Virus record (IMG/VR): IMGVR_UViG_3300017788_000189
Location: 1-22,625 of that record
Length of the DNA stretch: 22,625 bases
Strand: one strand, 5' to 3'
Source: a virus
Both the position numbers and the translations under genes were made by a program. How positions within the stretch are numbered: position 1 is the stretch's first letter; the number at the start of each line of letters is the position of its first letter. Below, piece after piece: positions 6,811-15,490 of this stretch. Under the pieces are notes generated by a model. That model did not search any database and had not been told where the DNA came from. It saw only the letters and a list, made by a program, of their open reading frames with translations.

Positions 6811-7297
6811 GAGGTTTTAGGGTGCTCATTGGACGAAGAAATTCTTTGGGGACAAAATAGGCAGGTCGGCCTCTAGCTGGATCAGCCCAAAACCTCTCCT
6901 CCATCGCCTCTTCTCCCCAGCACCAGCCGTGGACGAAGGTTTTTTGGTTTTCAATGGTCACGAGCACAAATTTTTTGTGTGGGTTTTCATTTTTTTGCAC
7001 GATGAGGTCATAGGAGTGCTTTGAACGTGTTTTCACATCAATTCCCGGCAGGTCGTCTGAACCGCGACGAGCATCGGTTTCTTTGTAAAGCTCATGCTTA
7101 AGGCCCAGCAAGGCAGCCACGGCCATTTCCCCTGCGGCGCCCAGTAGGTGAATTTCGAGAGCCTTGTCGCCACAGGCGGCTCCTTTGTTCCGCCCACGAA
7201 GCCCTTTGGCTTCATTGACCGACTGGCGCCTATGACCCTCCTCCATTGCATACTTCCTTTCCTCTGCGGAGAAGACAAATTCAATGGGTGTGGGCAT
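6794..7297 (-). CDS. PD-(D/E)XK nuclease-like protein encoded next to terL
   Basis: From ATG 7297 the product has 167 residues. It contains GAAGEMAVAALLGL (E57), followed 30 residues later by GIDVKTRS (D87, K89), then YDLIVQ and KKFVLVTI strands. This helix-E, D-x-K and beta order is that of the PD-(D/E)XK restriction-nuclease-like fold, and similar proteins of unknown role are frequent beside terminases in phage genomes. The C-terminus (ADPARGRPAYFVPKEFLRP) is typical of that group. It could trim or cut DNA during packaging, process concatemers or recombination intermediates, or degrade host DNA. Upstream in-frame ATGs at 7312, 7321 and 7332 are possible but add a hydrophobic leader (MRAMFLFF) not expected here. 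Its start and the portal start are divergent, 63 bases apart. Confidence 0.72.
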   Translation of the reverse strand: MPTPIEFVFSAEERKYAMEEGHRRQSVNEAKGLRGRNKGAACGDKALEIHLLGAAGEMAVAALLGLKHELYKETDARRGSDDLPGIDVKTRSKHSYDLIVQKNENPHKKFVLVTIENQKTFVHGWCWGEEAMEERFWADPARGRPAYFVPKEFLRPMSTLKPHAFMQ

Positions 7298-7360
7298 AAA
7301 GAACAAAAACATCGCTCTCATGGTAGCCACATTTAGAATGAATGCAAGCCTGTTGTGTGA

Positions 7361-9448
7361 ATGATGTCTGAAGAAGTGGTGGATCTTGGTCATGCGTCTG
7401 CTGGCGGCCTGAGAAACGATGGACTGGCCAATGCTTTGACTGGCATGGGCATCGCGGGGCGTGACAAGAGCTTGTTCACACAGGCACAGCCAATTATTTT
7501 TCTGTCGCAGGAAGAGCTCGAAGGGCTTTATGGGGAATGGTTGCCGCGAAGGATTGTCGATATTTACGCGGAGCAAGCCACCCGCAAGGGCTTCAAGGTT
7601 CTTTTTGGCGGCGAAGGTGCTGCTGCTGAAGAAGTGGTGGGCATTGAGCAAGTGATTGAAGATTTGTACATCCTTGAAAACTTCATGCTTGCCTCCAAGA
7701 ATTCCAGGCTGTACGGAGGCTCAGTCATTCTTCTTTATATTGACGATGGGCGTGCCGCTGACCAGCCCGTTGACAAGAGCCGCATTTACGCAGTGGAGGG
7801 CATGGAGGTTTTGGACCGCTGGCAAATTGCTCCGCTTATCAACGAAAATAATTTGTACGACTATTCAAAGGCGACATACTATCAAATTATTTCGGGCGAT
7901 TTGATTAACCAACCGCAACTAGTCAAAATTCACAAAGACAGGATTTTGCGCTTTGACGGCGATTGGCTTCCCTATCGCATTAGACAAAGAAACTATGGGT
8001 GGGGAATGAGCAGTTTGCAGACCATTTACGAAAGCTTCAAGCACTATTGGACCGGCTTAAATAGCGCCGCCACTTTATTGTGCGAGTTTGATATTTTCGT
8101 GCATAAAATTCGCGGCTTGTCTCAAATGCTTGCGGCCGGAAAGGAAAAAGATGTGCGAGATCGTTTGGTGCTGAACGATATGAGCAAGAGCGTTTATCGT
8201 GGCTATGCGATTGATGCGGAAAAAGAAGAGCTTGAATTTATTAGCCGCAATTTTGGTGGCGTTGGAGAAATCTTGGAAAAGATGCGCATTGATATTATTG
8301 GCGCGTCAAAAATTCCTCATACGGTGCTATTTGGTGAAAGCCCTAGTGGCCTTGGCTCTACGGGGCGAAGCGAAGAAAGAGATTTTGCTAAGACGCTTGC
8401 AGACTATCAACAGTCCACTTTCCATCGCCCCTTGAAGAAGCTGATGACCTACATCATGCTCAGCAAAATGGGGCCAACGCAGGGCAGGATGCCCGAGTCT
8501 TGGCGCATTTCGTTTAACAATCTGTTTGAACTGAATGAACGAGAAAAAGCTGACGTAAGGGCTCGCGTGGCGGCCGTAGACGGGCGATATATTCAACTTG
8601 GCGTGCTGAGTCCCAAGGAAGTGGCTGATGCCCGTTACGGAGGCTCTGAGTGGTCAATGGAGCTCACTCTCGATCCTTCAGTGGTGCGTGAATTGCCCCA
8701 GCAGGGTGGTTCTCAGGAGAGGGGTGGTTCCTCTCAGAAAGGGAGTGGCTTGGCAGTGCCTCCCGGCGGCCGTGACCCCCTAGACGAAGAAAATGGCACA
8801 CTTCCCATGGATGGTAGTAGAGAGGTGGAGGATTCCGCTGGTTTGTTCCTTCCGCGAGATTTGGAGAAAGTGCGTGGTGATATTGAGTTTAAGGACAAGG
8901 ACTTACACCAGCAGGCGATTGCTGCAGCCAAGGCGAAGTTCAAGGTGTGGCCCAGTGCTTATGCCAGCGCCTACATGGTCCAGAAATACAAAGAGTTCTA
9001 TCAAAAGAAGCATGGCAGTGGCAGCGGCTTCAAGGGAGATGGTGGTGATGTCAATTACGACGATCTAGACAAGTGGTTCAAAGAAGAGTGGGTGAGAATT
9101 GGCGCCAACGGGGAGATTCTTGGAGAATGCGGCGGGCGCGAAGAAAAAGAAGGAAAGCCGAAGTGCCTTCCCAAGGCAAAAGCTGAAGCCATGAGCAAAG
9201 AAGAGCGTCAAACAATCGTTGCTCGCAAGCGCAAGGCCGACCCCAATCCAGAGCGCAAAGGAGCTGCAAAGATGATCAGCAGCAAAGTTGATGCCATCGA
9301 GCCAGTCAAAGTAGAGGGCCTGATGTTGGCGGACATTGACGAGGCCGCTTTTATCAGCGAGGCTGATGTGGACATGGCCCTGCAGCAATGGAAAGAAGAA
9401 GCCCCCGAGCGCTTTAAGGATCTCCTGGAAGCCGACGATGCTGAATAA
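7361..9448 (+). CDS. Portal protein (DUF1073-type) with fused C-terminal module
   Basis: The 695-residue protein forms the dodecameric channel at the packaging vertex. Residues 1-455 resemble the DUF1073/Phage_portal_3 family: an early EWLPRRIVDIYAEQATRKGF, then YGGSVILLYIDDG, and IPHTVLFGESPSGLGSTG. The rest is unusual for a portal. After a low-complexity Gly/Ser linker (about 447-470), residues about 525-655 carry WPSAYASAYMVQKYKEFY followed by DLDKWFKEEWVRIG, a CGG and KPKCLPKAKAEAM cluster, and a basic ARKRKADPNPER stretch. This combination looks like the DUF5872-type module seen in other phages as a separate protein or tail. The last 40 residues are acidic. It begins the plus-strand virion operon, and its stop overlaps the next start by 11 bases. 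Confidence 0.88.
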   Translation: MMSEEVVDLGHASAGGLRNDGLANALTGMGIAGRDKSLFTQAQPIIFLSQEELEGLYGEWLPRRIVDIYAEQATRKGFKVLFGGEGAAAEEVVGIEQVIEDLYILENFMLASKNSRLYGGSVILLYIDDGRAADQPVDKSRIYAVEGMEVLDRWQIAPLINENNLYDYSKATYYQIISGDLINQPQLVKIHKDRILRFDGDWLPYRIRQRNYGWGMSSLQTIYESFKHYWTGLNSAATLLCEFDIFVHKIRGLSQMLAAGKEKDVRDRLVLNDMSKSVYRGYAIDAEKEELEFISRNFGGVGEILEKMRIDIIGASKIPHTVLFGESPSGLGSTGRSEERDFAKTLADYQQSTFHRPLKKLMTYIMLSKMGPTQGRMPESWRISFNNLFELNEREKADVRARVAAVDGRYIQLGVLSPKEVADARYGGSEWSMELTLDPSVVRELPQQGGSQERGGSSQKGSGLAVPPGGRDPLDEENGTLPMDGSREVEDSAGLFLPRDLEKVRGDIEFKDKDLHQQAIAAAKAKFKVWPSAYASAYMVQKYKEFYQKKHGSGSGFKGDGGDVNYDDLDKWFKEEWVRIGANGEILGECGGREEKEGKPKCLPKAKAEAMSKEERQTIVARKRKADPNPERKGAAKMISSKVDAIEPVKVEGLMLADIDEAAFISEADVDMALQQWKEEAPERFKDLLEADDAE

Positions 9449-10115
9449 CATCAGTAGCTTCAGTGAAATCATTTTGTCCAGCAGAATGGACGCCGACTGG
9501 TCTTATGACCAGAAGAGCGGACGTTACCGAGATGAGCGTGGACGATTCTTAAGCAAAGCTTCAGTCGAAAAGCTTTTGGACAAGCGCATAGATAAGCTGG
9601 ACGCAACATTGCGGCGCTTCACGCGCATGTTGATTGATGAGCAAATTACGCTTGACCAGTGGCAGGGCAGTGTCCGCGAATCGCTTAAAGCTGCTCATAT
9701 TCAGGCAGCGGTTATTGGCCACGGTGGTCGCGCCAATATGGGCAGTGCGGAATACGGTCGCATTGGTCAGCGACTTCGCGAAGAATATACTTATCTACAG
9801 GGTTTTGTTCGGGACTTGCTTTCTGAGGCTGTTTCTGCTCCCATGGCTCTTGCTCGTGTTGGTTTATACGCTCAGAGCGTTCGAGGTAGTTATTGGCAGG
9901 GGGCTGAGCTTCGGCAGGAAAAGCAGGGGTATAGCCTTATGCAAAGAATTTTGGACAGCCAAGCGCAACACTGTGCGGACTGTCTCCGGTATGCATCTCA
10001 AGGAGTAGTGCCCATTGGCACTGTGCCGCTTCCTGGCCGACGCTGCGAATGCGGATCCAGGTGCCGTTGCAGTGTTCGCTATTTGAAGCAGCAACCAGCG
10101 ACGGTGCCGGTCTGA
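9438..10115 (+). CDS. MuF-like minor head protein
   Basis: The ATG at 9438 overlaps the end of the portal gene, and the 225-residue product lies where phages usually encode the head-morphogenesis protein that binds the portal inside the capsid. The N-terminal part has a tryptophan-rich segment (MDADWSYDQKSGRYRDERGR) and helices about residues 50-160. The C-terminus holds a cysteine cluster: CADC, then PIGTVPLPG, then CECGSRCRC. Together these follow the MuF pattern of a CxxC, a 'PIG..PLPG' loop and a final CRC. The cysteines may bind zinc. A later ATG at 9487 is an alternative start. Its stop codon forms the loop of a 7-bp hairpin (10106-10122). Confidence 0.72.
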   Translation: MLNNISSFSEIILSSRMDADWSYDQKSGRYRDERGRFLSKASVEKLLDKRIDKLDATLRRFTRMLIDEQITLDQWQGSVRESLKAAHIQAAVIGHGGRANMGSAEYGRIGQRLREEYTYLQGFVRDLLSEAVSAPMALARVGLYAQSVRGSYWQGAELRQEKQGYSLMQRILDSQAQHCADCLRYASQGVVPIGTVPLPGRRCECGSRCRCSVRYLKQQPATVPV

Positions 10116-10152: not shown

Positions 10153-12048
10153 GTGGCAACCATCCTCTATTGCGGCGACGCTGCTTGCCAAACTGGCTTC
10201 GGCCGAGTGGCTGAGTACCTGCTGCCTGCTCTCGCAGAAAAGCATGACGTGCATGTGCTGGCGGTTAATTGGCACGGCGACCCAGACCCCATGCAAAAGC
10301 ATTGCAAGATGTATCCAGCCATGGCCCACGGCAGCGACCCGTTTGGCAGCCATCGCATTGGCGAACTCTTGCAAACTATCAAGCCAGACTTGGTATGGGT
10401 GACCAATGATATTTGGTGTGCCATTAACCTTTGGGAAGCGGCCAAGCCATTTCAGGAAGCCTTGGGCTTCAAATGGTTTGTCTATACGCCCATTGATAGT
10501 TACGGACTTTTCCCCGAGCTGTTGCCTGCGCTAGAGGAGTGGGATGGCATTGCCACCTACACGCGATTTGGGGCAGAAGAAATTCGCAAGATTGGTTACA
10601 AAGACAAGGTTCGTATTGTAGGCCATGGCACTGACTTCTCGAAGTTTTTTCGCCTGGATCAAGCAGAGTGCCGCAAAGAACTGGGAGTGCCTGAAGATGT
10701 TTTCATTGTTTTCAATGGCAACAGGAATCAACCGCGCAAACGCATCGACTTAACAATCAAGGGCTTTGTCAAGTTTGCCAAGGACAAGCCAGACGCACGA
10801 TTGTGGCTCAACATGGGGAAAAAAGACATGGGGTGGGACTTGGTGCCTTTGTTCAAGCGTGTGGCGCGAGATGAAGGTTACGAAGCAACCGGCAAGCTCA
10901 TTCTCACCAGTCCGCATTTTTCCACTAGCAACTGTCTCCCCATTGAGCAGTTGAACAAGGTGTACAATGCCGTGGATATTGGCGTGAACACTTGCATTGG
11001 CGAGGGATGGGGCCTGGTCAATACCGAGCATGCTGCCACTGGAGTGGCTCAATTGGTTCCAGACCACACAAGCTTGAAGGAAATCTTTCATGGCATTCCC
11101 CGCATCGTCTGTCATGGCTCTGAAACCGATAGGAACTATGGGCTCGAGAGGCCGCTGCCAGAGCCTGATAGCATGGCCGAGCTCTTGACCAGCTATTACA
11201 GCAATCGCACAGCCCTTAAGCAGGCTGGTGACTGGTGCTATCAGCGTGTTCACGAACAAGAGCTGTCTTGGCCCTCCATTCAAAAGCAAATGCTGAACAT
11301 CGTCAAAGAACTGCTTGTCACGGCAAAGAAAACCGCCGCCAAGGGCTTCGCAAAAAAGCCTAAGGGCCAGGGGACAACCAGCTTCCCTGGCCGACAAACG
11401 CAATGGATTGATTTCAGCGAAAGCAATAACGTCTTCTGTATCAGCATTGAAGGGGATGACCGGCGCCAAAAGTTTGCCGATCAGATGGGGAAAATTGGTC
11501 AGGCATTTAATTGGTGGGCGGCTTTCGATGGCAGGCAACTGTCTCGCAAGGAGTTGGATGCACAAAGTCCGGTGCCGATTGACTGGGAGGTCGATGAAGA
11601 CAAGGACACGCTCAAGCGCGTCGGAGAGGCCGCCCTTATTCTCTCCTCCATTGCCCTTTGGAAACATGCCGTCGATCAAGACATGGATCATCTCGTGATT
11701 CTGGAGGACGACACTGAAGTGATGCGCCCGCTGATCCTTGAAGTGCCAGAGGACGCAGACCTTGTCTTTTTCAATGATCGCAGCATGCGAAATAAAGACG
11801 GTTTCACTTGGGGATATGTATGTGGCACGGATGGTTATTTGGTTACCAAGCAAGGACTATCCAAGCTGCTTGAAGTCTTTTCGCGGGCCTATTTGCCCTT
11901 GGATCTCCAAATGATTGCCAACACGGAGAGCATGCGTGATTGCAAACACCACTTATTTGCCTATAGGAAAGAAGAGCTGCCCCTCTTGAAAAGCTACACA
12001 CTGCCTCCCATTGCTTTCCACAACAACTCCCCCTCCCGCATCCGATGA
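10153..12048 (+). CDS. Two-domain glycosyltransferase (GT4-like + GT25-like)
   Basis: The GTG at 10153 opens a 631-residue protein with two catalytic modules. Residues 1-400 look like a GT-B, GT4-type retaining transferase: a glycine-containing N-terminal strand (YCGDAACQTGFGR), FNGNRNQPRKRIDLTIKGF, and the E-x7-E motif EGWGLVNTE (E284, E292). A basic Lys/Ala/Gly-rich linker (about 395-420) leads to a GT25-like module. This has VFCISIEGDDRR, FNWWAAFDGR, then VILEDDTEV (E518-D520), the metal-binding ExD-type site of LPS-type transferases. It would transfer sugars from nucleotide donors, possibly two successive residues on one acceptor. The acceptor is unknown: virion protein, host surface glycan or phage DNA are options. 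It sits between head genes, and the radical SAM gene overlaps its stop (ATGA). Confidence 0.85.
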   Translation: MATILYCGDAACQTGFGRVAEYLLPALAEKHDVHVLAVNWHGDPDPMQKHCKMYPAMAHGSDPFGSHRIGELLQTIKPDLVWVTNDIWCAINLWEAAKPFQEALGFKWFVYTPIDSYGLFPELLPALEEWDGIATYTRFGAEEIRKIGYKDKVRIVGHGTDFSKFFRLDQAECRKELGVPEDVFIVFNGNRNQPRKRIDLTIKGFVKFAKDKPDARLWLNMGKKDMGWDLVPLFKRVARDEGYEATGKLILTSPHFSTSNCLPIEQLNKVYNAVDIGVNTCIGEGWGLVNTEHAATGVAQLVPDHTSLKEIFHGIPRIVCHGSETDRNYGLERPLPEPDSMAELLTSYYSNRTALKQAGDWCYQRVHEQELSWPSIQKQMLNIVKELLVTAKKTAAKGFAKKPKGQGTTSFPGRQTQWIDFSESNNVFCISIEGDDRRQKFADQMGKIGQAFNWWAAFDGRQLSRKELDAQSPVPIDWEVDEDKDTLKRVGEAALILSSIALWKHAVDQDMDHLVILEDDTEVMRPLILEVPEDADLVFFNDRSMRNKDGFTWGYVCGTDGYLVTKQGLSKLLEVFSRAYLPLDLQMIANTESMRDCKHHLFAYRKEELPLLKSYTLPPIAFHNNSPSRIR

Positions 12049-12980
12049 ATCGCCTTAAGAACGTTCAAATTCAAACGCAAGGAGCTTGCAATGCAAACTG
12101 TGTTTTTTGCCCTTGGATAGAAAGTTGGCATCATGCCAATTACGGCGTGATGGATAGAGAATTGTTTTCACGCATTTTAGATATGCTGCTGCCATGGAAA
12201 GAAAACATTGAAGATGGCGGCAAGATTTGTCCCTATTTAATGCAAGAGCCTTTTGTTGACAAACGCATTTTTGAGCTGTGTGAAGAAATACAAAGCAAGT
12301 TTCCGAGAGCTGTTCTTGAACTTTCGACCAATGGGGCGTTGCTTTCCAAGGACAAAACCGAGCGGCTTATTCCCTTGTTAGAAGGCAAGCCTCATGAACT
12401 ATGGGTGAGTCACCATGGCGTTGACAAGGCTTCCCACGAAGAAATCATGAAAATCAACCATGAAAGATCCACTTCTAACTTGATCAATTTGATTAAAGAA
12501 GCCAAGGGGCGCTTAAACATCCGAGTGAGAGGAAGCGGGTCTTCTCGTACTGGCATTGGACGCCATTGGTTCTCCCGACAAGAATATTTTGAATACTGGT
12601 ACAAGCTTTCCAAGGAGCACGGCTTTAATCTCTCGTGGATTGATTTGGACTACTTCACCTATCATGACCGAGCTGGAACAATCAACAGGAAAGAGCGGGG
12701 CGCCGGAGAAAATAATTTCGGGAAGGTTCGCGACATTGGCCCAGGGTCGCCGTTCCATTGCAGCCGTTTGGACGAATGGCTTCATGTTATGTGGAATGGT
12801 GACATTCGACTGTGCTGCATGGACTACCACGCTGAGGTCAAGCTTCCCAATTTGAACCATATGACGATTGAGGAGTATTACCAAGGAAAGGACTTTGGGG
12901 AAGTGGCCGCGCAAGTAACGGGACAAATTGAAAGCCCAGACGATTTTATTTGCAAAAGATGCACGAGTCCAGGGGGCTAA
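12045..12980 (+). CDS. Radical SAM protein with C-terminal cysteine cluster (SPASM-like)
   Basis: The 311-residue protein begins with the radical SAM iron-sulfur motif CNANCVFC (C15, C19, C22; CX3CX2C) and continues with the expected beta/alpha barrel features: a GGKICPYLMQEP loop, LELSTNGALL and LWVSHHG. The C-terminal third has further cysteines, FHCSRLDEW, RLCCMDY and ICKRC. These resemble a SPASM or twitch auxiliary cluster binding additional iron-sulfur centres. Such enzymes cleave S-adenosylmethionine to a radical and modify peptides, sugars or tRNA. Its ATG overlaps the glycosyltransferase stop by four bases, so the two proteins are made together. A joint glycan or glycopeptide modification is a reasonable inference. 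No precursor peptide is recognisable nearby. Confidence 0.85.
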   Translation: MNRLKNVQIQTQGACNANCVFCPWIESWHHANYGVMDRELFSRILDMLLPWKENIEDGGKICPYLMQEPFVDKRIFELCEEIQSKFPRAVLELSTNGALLSKDKTERLIPLLEGKPHELWVSHHGVDKASHEEIMKINHERSTSNLINLIKEAKGRLNIRVRGSGSSRTGIGRHWFSRQEYFEYWYKLSKEHGFNLSWIDLDYFTYHDRAGTINRKERGAGENNFGKVRDIGPGSPFHCSRLDEWLHVMWNGDIRLCCMDYHAEVKLPNLNHMTIEEYYQGKDFGEVAAQVTGQIESPDDFICKRCTSPGG

Positions 12981-13005: not shown

Positions 13006-13302
13006 ATGACCAAGAAAGAAAAGCAGGCGAAGATTCGTCTCGTCATGAGGGAATTCAAGAGCGGCAAGCTGAAGAGCAGCAGCGGCGAAGTAATTACCAG
13101 TCCGCAACGTGCGCTCGCAATTGCGCTGTCTGAAGCCGGAATGTCCCGCAAGCCCAAAAAGGACATGGGCGATGAGTATTACATGGCCTTCATGAAAGAG
13201 CTCGGAGGAGAGGAAGAGGAAGAGGAAGAAATGGATGAAAGCATTGGCGAAAAGCGCTGCAAGGCCTATTTAAGCACTGTCAGAAAAAACAGAAAAAAGT
13301 AG
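13006..13302 (+). CDS. DUF6496-like small protein with acidic tail
   Basis: From ATG 13006 the product has 98 residues. The first 50 match the pattern I associate with DUF6496: a basic KIRLVMREFKSGKLKSSSG followed by SPQRALAIALSEAG and RKPKK. The family occurs in phages and bacteria and has no assigned function. Next comes a glutamate run (GGEEEEEEEMDES, about residues 65-77) and a basic tail ending in VRKNRKK. A longer frame from TTG 12928 overlaps the radical SAM gene and is unlikely. The split into basic head, acidic run and basic tail suggests nucleic-acid or protein binding. It sits in the middle of the head operon, so it may be packaged or assist assembly. Confidence 0.7.
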   Translation: MTKKEKQAKIRLVMREFKSGKLKSSSGEVITSPQRALAIALSEAGMSRKPKKDMGDEYYMAFMKELGGEEEEEEEMDESIGEKRCKAYLSTVRKNRKK

Positions 13303-14296: not shown

Positions 14297-15490
14297 ATGA
14301 GCGAAACTTCTTTTCGTTACGACATCGCGCCCATCGAAAAGTACGAGCTAACCCCCGAAGGTTATCTTCGCACTTGGGCCACTATTGCTCGCACTGGCGT
14401 ACAAATGTACACCGATGCGGCCGGTGGGGTTCGGCGTGAATATCGTCCCGAAGAAGAAGTGGGCTCGCCAGAAAGCCTCGCTTCGTTTGCGGGCAAGGCT
14501 GTAACTCTTGAACATCCCCCGGCTCTGCTTGACAGTGCCAATACGAAAGACTATCAAATTGGTTTTTCGGGCACCGAGGTGGTTTATGACAACGGTTTTG
14601 TCCGTGCCGTCATGACCATCACGGATAAGGATGCGATTGAACGCATCATGCGGGGTGATGCAAAAGAAGTGAGTGCTGGTTACAGGGTTCAATTTGACCC
14701 AACGCCCGGCATTGCGGAAGGCGGTGAGCATTACGACGGCGTCCAACGGATGATCGACGGTAATCACATTGCTGTTGTCCGCAGGGGCAGGGCAGGCCCG
14801 CAGGTGAAGCTTCATCTAGATCGCCTAGATGCCGCCGACCCATCTTTACTATCTCTTATTGAGGAACCATCTATGACTGCGAAGGTCAATTTTGATGGCG
14901 CCGAGTTCGAGGTGACCGAGAGCGTTGCTCTGGCGATCACCAAAGAGCGCGAAGATGCCAAAATGTCCTACGAGGACATGAAAAAACAATACGATGCCAT
15001 GATGTCCGAAGCTTCCAAAATGAAGGAAGAAATGGATGCCATGAGCAAAGAAACCAAAGGCAAGTGCGATGCCGCTGAGGGTCGCGCTGATGCCCTGGAG
15101 CAAGAGCTTGAGGCCGTGCGTGCTGAGCTTGATTCCGCTAAGGAAATCAATCTTGATTCGCTGGTTCAAGAACGTGTTGCTCTGATTGATAAGGCTCGCG
15201 CCACCCTGGATAGCGAGTTTGATTTTGCAGGCAAAGATGCTCGTGAAATCATGGAAGCCGCTGTCAAGGCGGTGCGTGGTGATGCCATGGATCTGTCAGA
15301 GAAATCTGACGATTACGTGCAAGCCATGTTCGACACACTGGTTGAATCGGCTCATAGCGATTCTGCCGCCACCGATGAGCTTCGCAAAGCCGTTGCCTCC
15401 ATCGCATCTCCCGCTTCTGCACCGTCTTCCTACCTGGAGCGACTGCAGAATGCCTGGAAGACCCCTCTTTCCATCTCCAAGGAGCGCTGA
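14297..15490 (+). CDS. Prohead protease (DUF2213-like) fused to scaffold
   Basis: This 397-residue protein combines a capsid-assembly protease and its scaffold. Residues about 1-185 fit DUF2213: GKAVTLEHPP (H73), then AKEVSAGYRV (S126) and GNHIAVVRRGRAGP (H157). The serine and two histidines fit a herpesvirus-type assemblin triad, but the assignment is by analogy. Residues 193-300 are a charged heptad-like coiled coil (for example KQYDAMMSEASKMKEEMDAM). The last 100 residues are helical and end in YLERLQNAWKTPLSISKER, probably the shell-contact peptide. The protease would cut the scaffold once the shell is built. It is followed by the decoration and major capsid genes. An internal start at 14873 could make the scaffold alone. 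Confidence 0.85.
   Translation: MSETSFRYDIAPIEKYELTPEGYLRTWATIARTGVQMYTDAAGGVRREYRPEEEVGSPESLASFAGKAVTLEHPPALLDSANTKDYQIGFSGTEVVYDNGFVRAVMTITDKDAIERIMRGDAKEVSAGYRVQFDPTPGIAEGGEHYDGVQRMIDGNHIAVVRRGRAGPQVKLHLDRLDAADPSLLSLIEEPSMTAKVNFDGAEFEVTESVALAITKEREDAKMSYEDMKKQYDAMMSEASKMKEEMDAMSKETKGKCDAAEGRADALEQELEAVRAELDSAKEINLDSLVQERVALIDKARATLDSEFDFAGKDAREIMEAAVKAVRGDAMDLSEKSDDYVQAMFDTLVESAHSDSAATDELRKAVASIASPASAPSSYLERLQNAWKTPLSISKER
14873..15490 (+). CDS. Candidate nested scaffold protein from an internal start
   Basis: Within the protease-scaffold gene, in the same frame, ATG 14873 (M193) is preceded by GAGGA at 14861-14865, with 7 bases between. This is one of the better ribosome binding sites in a window where many genes lack one. 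It falls exactly at the boundary between the protease domain and the coiled coil. The product would be a 205-residue scaffold without protease. Lambda makes Nu3 from inside gene C in the same way. This arrangement is inferred and needs protein evidence. Confidence 0.5.
   Translation: MTAKVNFDGAEFEVTESVALAITKEREDAKMSYEDMKKQYDAMMSEASKMKEEMDAMSKETKGKCDAAEGRADALEQELEAVRAELDSAKEINLDSLVQERVALIDKARATLDSEFDFAGKDAREIMEAAVKAVRGDAMDLSEKSDDYVQAMFDTLVESAHSDSAATDELRKAVASIASPASAPSSYLERLQNAWKTPLSISKER

Follow-up and report, generated by a model that had tools for sequence, protein, structure and literature searches.

A variable slot in the head operon of S-CBS4-like cyanophages carries a GT4-GT25 glycosyltransferase fusion and a radical SAM protein that may tailor a sugar

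The window analysed here, a stretch of 22,625 nt (IMGVR_UViG_3300017788_000189), is part of an S-CBS4-like siphovirus. Around the slot, its gene order matches that of Synechococcus phage S-CBS4 (NC_016766): ribonucleotide reductase genes, a phosphoesterase, a terminase (minus strand), the portal, a MuF-like gene and a GT4 glycosyltransferase, followed by a slot of variable content, small genes, an HTH gene (minus strand), the protease and the major capsid gene. The slot and its surroundings comprise the following features:

9438..10115, plus strand: MuF-like gene, upstream flank of the slot region (phrog_24776; homologues in the same place in relatives)
10153..11316, plus strand: GT4 domain (residues 1-388) of the constant slot gene (phrog_2170 glycosyltransferase, E=6.5e-52)
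11317..11388, plus strand: lysine-rich linker between the two glycosyltransferase domains (model pLDDT <50 at residues 394-412)
11389..12048, plus strand: GT25 domain fused to the GT4 C-terminus, including the stop codon (PF01755; 7 IMG/VR loci)
12045..12048, plus strand: ATGA overlap of the fusion stop and the radical SAM start (read directly)
12045..12980, plus strand: radical SAM/twitch protein, 311 aa (Pfam; model pLDDT 92.5; BtrN top by profile and fold)
12087..12110, plus strand: codons of the cluster motif C15-X3-C19-X2-C22 (invariant in 25 aligned relatives)
12759..12962, plus strand: codons of the putative auxiliary-cluster cysteines C239, C257, C303 and C306 (one-to-one with BtrN cysteines)
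13006..13302, plus strand: small constant gene at the downstream slot edge (homologues follow the slot in relatives)
14297..15490, plus strand: head maturation protease (DUF2213, E=1.3e-42; phrog_530, E=2.4e-103)

The original prediction, made from the nucleotide sequence, had placed the glycosyltransferase and radical SAM genes between MuF-like and protease genes. The protease is confirmed by its DUF2213 and phrog_530 matches, with three small plus-strand ORFs and the minus-strand HTH gene intervening; only by motif can the upstream gene be called MuF-like, phrog_24776 carrying no function and Pfam giving no match. The small gene at the downstream edge is DUF6496-like below the cut-off, and its start codon at 13006 is a guess. 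The window, like all relatives whose flanks can be read, has the slot in the head operon; counts of promoters and terminators between MuF and protease are at chance level. Many relatives have an additional 3-kb insert between MuF and GT4 that encodes a TIM-barrel protein (AP_endonuc_2), a FAD oxidoreductase, and other genes. Farther upstream, the portal (7361-9448) bears a C-terminal extension (residues 512-625), beyond the portal domain proper, that matches DUF5872 above the cut-off.

As had been predicted, two glycosyltransferase domains, GT4 (phrog_2170) and GT25 (PF01755), are fused in a single ORF of 631 aa (10153..12048, plus strand) with a GTG start. The first domain matches Pfam Glycos_transf_1 below the cut-off and belongs to GT4 by its GT-B fold and C-terminal E-x7-E motif (E284, E292), which is invariant across 28 aligned sequences. 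The top Foldseek match of its model is the chlorovirus GT4 B736L (3oy2, E=6e-23), followed among the top matches by BshA, MshA, and PimB', all of them GT4 enzymes. B736L, from chlorovirus NY2A, is the closest solved GT4 by sequence too (E=2.9e-13) and is likewise virus-encoded, but it comes from an algal virus, is about 22% identical and is not fused to GT25. Residues 426-523 match Glyco_transf_25 (PF01755; E=2.5e-13, 50.8 bits against a cut-off of 24), which assigns the second domain to GT25; the match spans profile positions 3-98 of 199, and the motifs ILEDD and GTDGYL can be read directly in the domain. The GT25 half of the structure model is mostly of low confidence and the solved GT25 enzymes are weak sequence matches (E 0.06). 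In relatives without GT25, the GT4 genes stop at about residue 404-411.

The ATGA overlap between the fusion and the radical SAM gene was also seen as predicted, at 12045-12048, and in relatives, too, GT4 and the gene after it overlap by a median of 4 bases. The radical SAM gene occurs at 87-96% identity in seven IMG/VR contigs, with the GT4-GT25 coding region directly upstream in all seven. Four of them (L008, L009, L010, and L012) have the complete 631-aa fusion ORF, and in two (L006 and L011) it is cut by the contig start; an eighth contig (L015) has the intact 631-aa fusion and ends ahead of the next gene. The search for the pair in relatives, proposed together with the original prediction, thus found the GT25 fusion and the radical SAM gene linked in every contig where both are visible. 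In L007 (1262-3150), the fusion is split into two overlapping frames, by either a natural split or a sequencing error. The GT4, GT25, and radical SAM domains are all under strong purifying selection, with pairwise omega values of 0.017-0.041 (0.034-0.041 for GT25) and dS near or above 1. GT25 is the fastest-changing domain: identity between the window and L009 is 89% for GT4, 87% for the radical SAM protein, and 74% for GT25, and L014 is 82% identical to the window in GT4 and 54% in GT25.

The second gene of the pair encodes a member of the radical SAM superfamily, as indicated by a CX3CX2C motif on a radical SAM barrel, the structure model and the fold matches; in Pfam, SPASM is above its cut-off (E=2e-7) and Radical_SAM just below (2.4e-6). 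The protein has this motif and four C-terminal cysteines, so that the predicted extra cysteine clusters were rightly called, the four most likely forming one auxiliary cluster. BtrN, the 2-deoxy-scyllo-inosamine dehydrogenase (PDB 4m7s/4m7t), is the best solved match in a single-sequence search (E=0.0025) and leads a profile search (E=1.6e-30, with all seven BtrN cluster cysteines aligned; EpeE next at 1.7e-12). The profile was made from 25 relatives, down to about 23% identity, and therefore describes a broad family. BtrN is also the top Foldseek match of the AlphaFold2 model (pLDDT 92.5, pTM 0.91) and heads the VIA-align comparison (Z 21.9 over 235 of its 246 residues, 2.8 A), DesII being next at 19.3. 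BtrN, whose twitch domain holds one auxiliary cluster on four cysteines, catalyses the two-electron oxidation of 2-deoxy-scyllo-inosamine (PMC9012708). It shares with the phage protein the twitch layout, seven cluster cysteines, and the C-X17-C (C239, C257) and C-X2-C (C303, C306) spacings, but is about 17% identical over the aligned residues and acts on a free cyclitol in an antibiotic pathway. By sequence, the phage protein has the BtrN-type twitch layout, in which a truncated SPASM domain would hold a single auxiliary cluster on four cysteines, and its fold and cysteine layout predict a sugar or cyclitol dehydrogenase activity of the BtrN type. Residues H124, R162, D208, R209, H262, and E264 are invariant in the five closest sequences. 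Among NCBIfam models, no equivalog came near its cut-off; the best match, TIGR04317 (tungsten oxidoreductase maturase), scored 42 bits against a cut-off of 380, and its function was not adopted. Phage and plasmid records gave one weak, uninformative match each (29% and 25%). In the relative L009 (5995-7641), the radical SAM ORF runs on without a stop through a cysteine-rich stretch, to 548 aa in total, and extends into the homologue of the next gene.

Fold alone leaves the substrate unfixed, and we consider it improbable, if worth weighing, that the radical SAM enzyme modifies the acceptor protein and not the sugar, for example by oxidising or epimerising a virion-protein residue at or near the glycosylation site. 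Most of the SPASM/twitch enzymes near it in fold do act on peptides (SuiB, ChlB, SkfB, anSME, and EpeE): judged from the model, ChlB, SuiB, anSME, and SkfB follow BtrN closely in VIA-align (Z 17-19), a proximity that speaks against a sugar substrate, and EpeE ranks second in the profile search. However, the E-value of BtrN is better by 18 orders of magnitude, and the second-highest Z belongs to DesII. Moreover, the protein sequence opens directly with the radical SAM core, which leaves no space for an N-terminal domain that binds peptides, and the enzymes that replace it in other slots (methyl- and aminotransferases and an epimerase, see below) are typical of sugar tailoring.

GT4 relatives in IMG/VR number 146, and we surveyed the slot in the best 80 of them, taking one locus per contig and assigning slot contents with Pfam support; 63 loci span the region from GT4 to the next constant gene. 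The most common filling is Gly_transf_sug (GT32-type) followed by DUF4422 (38 loci), which also occurs with an added methyltransferase (6 loci) or with an epimerase and a DegT aminotransferase (3 loci). Gly_transf_sug is otherwise accompanied by an FkbM methyltransferase and an unassigned protein (3 loci) or by a GT2, a C-methyltransferase, and a CmcI-type methyltransferase (2 loci), and the remaining fillings are single cases. None of the 63 complete slots found among the best 80 of the 146 GT4 relatives is empty, and all of them are filled with glycan-type genes. With fillings that vary and no empty slot, GT4 represents the fixed component, and what lies behind it can be exchanged. The filling of the window, GT25 fused to GT4 plus the radical SAM gene, was never mixed with other fillings in the sampled loci. 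The pair had been taken for a self-contained modification unit: it is indeed linked, as the overlap, the co-occurrence and the glycosyltransferase contexts of viral relatives (see below) attest, but it is not self-contained, GT4 being constant and only GT25 and the radical SAM gene exchangeable. The predicted lack of sugar-nucleotide synthesis genes was borne out, none being seen within the window and the Epimerase and NTP_transferase families being absent from a 64-kb relative and from S-CBS4 (controls positive).

Several relatives have HNH endonuclease genes within the glycan slot or bordering it (L001:12317-12832, L029:3261-3827, L022:5461-5976, and L049:2291-2830), annotated as such in S-CBS4 and recognised as HNH_3 in the other three; these endonucleases might drive cassette exchange by homing. 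The slot of L043 encodes a 408-aa protein (7274-8500; cluster c8) with no Pfam match, and the cluster c8 protein comes after the FkbM methyltransferase in 4 of 4 loci.

The closest known arrangement is that of S-CBS4 itself, where gp014-gp016 (NC_016766), annotated as glycosyltransferase, galactosyl transferase, and SAM methyltransferase, occupy the same place in a collinear genome. The S-CBS4 GT4 gene is 61% identical to that of the window and likewise precedes another glycosyltransferase and a tailoring enzyme, but there the former is a separate GT2-type gene and the latter a methyltransferase, with neither GT25 nor radical SAM. Our literature search returned nothing direct on the S-CBS4 glycosyltransferase or on phage radical SAM glycans.

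The reading of the locus as a glycan cassette is well supported. As the best explanation, in which our belief and our doubt are about evenly matched, we propose that S-CBS4-like cyanophages have a variable slot for glycan decoration and that the locus represents one of its fillings, the radical SAM enzyme serving to tailor the sugar. With a double glycosyltransferase and a radical SAM protein built like a cyclitol dehydrogenase, the virus probably decorates its own particle, or the surface of its host, with an unusual sugar. The acceptor would receive its first sugar from the constant GT4 domain and its second from the fused GT25 domain, both domains drawing on host sugar nucleotides. The co-translated radical SAM/twitch enzyme would abstract a hydrogen from a sugar ring carbon, before or after transfer, and oxidise or otherwise tailor the sugar, as BtrN does with its cyclitol; such a tailoring step is the role that gene context and the likeness to BtrN favour. 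Since the unit belongs to the head operon, the most likely carrier of the completed glycan would be a virion protein that is being assembled during the same period. We infer the order of these steps, the sugar substrate, the oxidation chemistry, and the acceptor.

The locus combines a phage-encoded glycosyltransferase with linked structural genes, an arrangement expected of a phage virion glycosylation system. Virion glycosylation by phage glycosyltransferases is established (Freeman 2023, cited in PMC12363180 and PMC12619734), and the mycobacteriophages Che8, Corndog, and Myrna have their own glycosyltransferases, thought to decorate capsid or tail proteins (Freeman 2023, cited in PMC12363180). 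In those phages the virion glycan has been measured, and the passages cited mention no radical SAM enzyme. The head-operon position, and the capsid and tail glycosylation established in mycobacteriophages, suggest that the virion is a likelier acceptor than the host surface. That position also fits the late expression of a host-surface modifier, and a serious alternative, though one that we regard as doubtful, is that the cassette alters a host surface polysaccharide (O-chain type) during infection, for instance to block superinfection or the re-adsorption of progeny, its place in the head operon merely ensuring late expression. In pelagimyophages, a single hypervariable region holds both glycosyltransferases and radical SAM gene cassettes, and the authors who described it preferred to see these glycosyltransferases as modifiers of the host O-chain (PMC7029224). 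Pfam annotates GT25 as an LPS biosynthesis family, and the slot fillings with epimerase, DegT aminotransferase, and C-methyltransferase resemble O-antigen gene sets. The pelagimyophage region, likened to ours by gene content alone as a variable region with both kinds of genes, nevertheless surrounds a myovirus tail-fibre module, in contrast with the consistent head-operon location of the slot in S-CBS4-like relatives, and no polymerase, flippase, or acyltransferase was found in the slots seen. Glycosylation of the phage DNA, as a hypermodified base, is very unlikely. Virus glycosyltransferases that hypermodify DNA exist (Pyle 2024, cited in PMC12619734), but the thymidylate-synthase-type hydroxymethylase (PF00303) is absent from 13 viral records including the 64-kb relative (controls positive; the records may be fragments), S-CBS4 is annotated with thy1 and without a base hydroxylase, and the cassette partners are sugar aminotransferases, C-methyltransferases, and epimerases. 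Tet/JBP (PF12851) had no match either, a weak result since its control was also silent.

For the exact gene set, the original claim that no phage system of this composition has been described largely holds, the pelagimyophage cassettes and virion glycosylation being already known. Phage-encoded glycosylation of virion or host is not new; the GT4-GT25 plus radical SAM filling is. If our preferred reading, a radical SAM enzyme tailoring the sugar of a glycan cassette, is right, radical chemistry joins methylation and transamination among the means by which phages diversify their glycans. The slot offers a natural comparison set, with one constant glycosyltransferase and many exchangeable second steps in a phage group that has a cultured member, S-CBS4, so that what phage glycan cassettes decorate becomes directly testable.

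Five further viral lineages have a radical SAM relative (35-50%) in a glycosyltransferase cassette, at loci that were found via the radical SAM protein, with no selection for glycosyltransferases. GT2 is the next gene in L172/L173; a methyltransferase precedes and a GT2 follows the radical SAM gene in L174-L176/L200; L193 has a sulfotransferase-GT2 fusion and then a GT2; and in L199 a GT-B gene lies before it and a methyltransferase and a GT2 after. In L181 the relative is in a sugar cassette, with a GT4 five genes upstream and DegT-like and epimerase genes nearby. More distant relatives adjoin a methyltransferase-GT2 fusion (L178) or lie four ORFs downstream of a GT2 (L182), while L179 has just a methyltransferase-like neighbour and the contigs of L180 and L183 are too short for judging gene context. 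The L182 protein (6989-8413) is extended at its C-terminus by about 200 aa that lack a Pfam match and look glycosyltransferase-like by eye only; its contig has GT2 and methyltransferase-like genes. We tentatively raise the possibility that viruses decorate their particles with an oxidised (keto- or dehydro-) sugar made by a dedicated BtrN-like radical SAM family, which circulates among unrelated phages as an exchangeable tailoring module with varied glycosyltransferases. Compact and well delimited, the family lends itself to the search for a new carbohydrate-acting reaction, and the reaction of the enzyme studied here is possibly new.

Outside viruses, the only full-length relatives above 29% in a pattern scan of 84,980 species genomes came from SAR324 and a deltaproteobacterial bin (43-47%); the scan rests on two peptide patterns, and there was no cyanobacterial relative among its 80 best genome matches. 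The tree does not place the viral and bacterial groups relative to each other. In SAR324, a match occurs in 4 of 52 genomes and is just 55 residues long in one. The SAR324 copies adjoin SufS/SufU, dUTPase, or isoamylase and ABC transporter genes, neighbours that pointed to no function, with no glycosyltransferases alongside in the contexts examined, which counts against our best explanation. The short SAR324-group copy (L191, 1489-1821), reduced to the first 55 matched residues, shares its isoamylase/ABC-transporter surroundings with the full-length copy of L190 and is probably a decayed gene.
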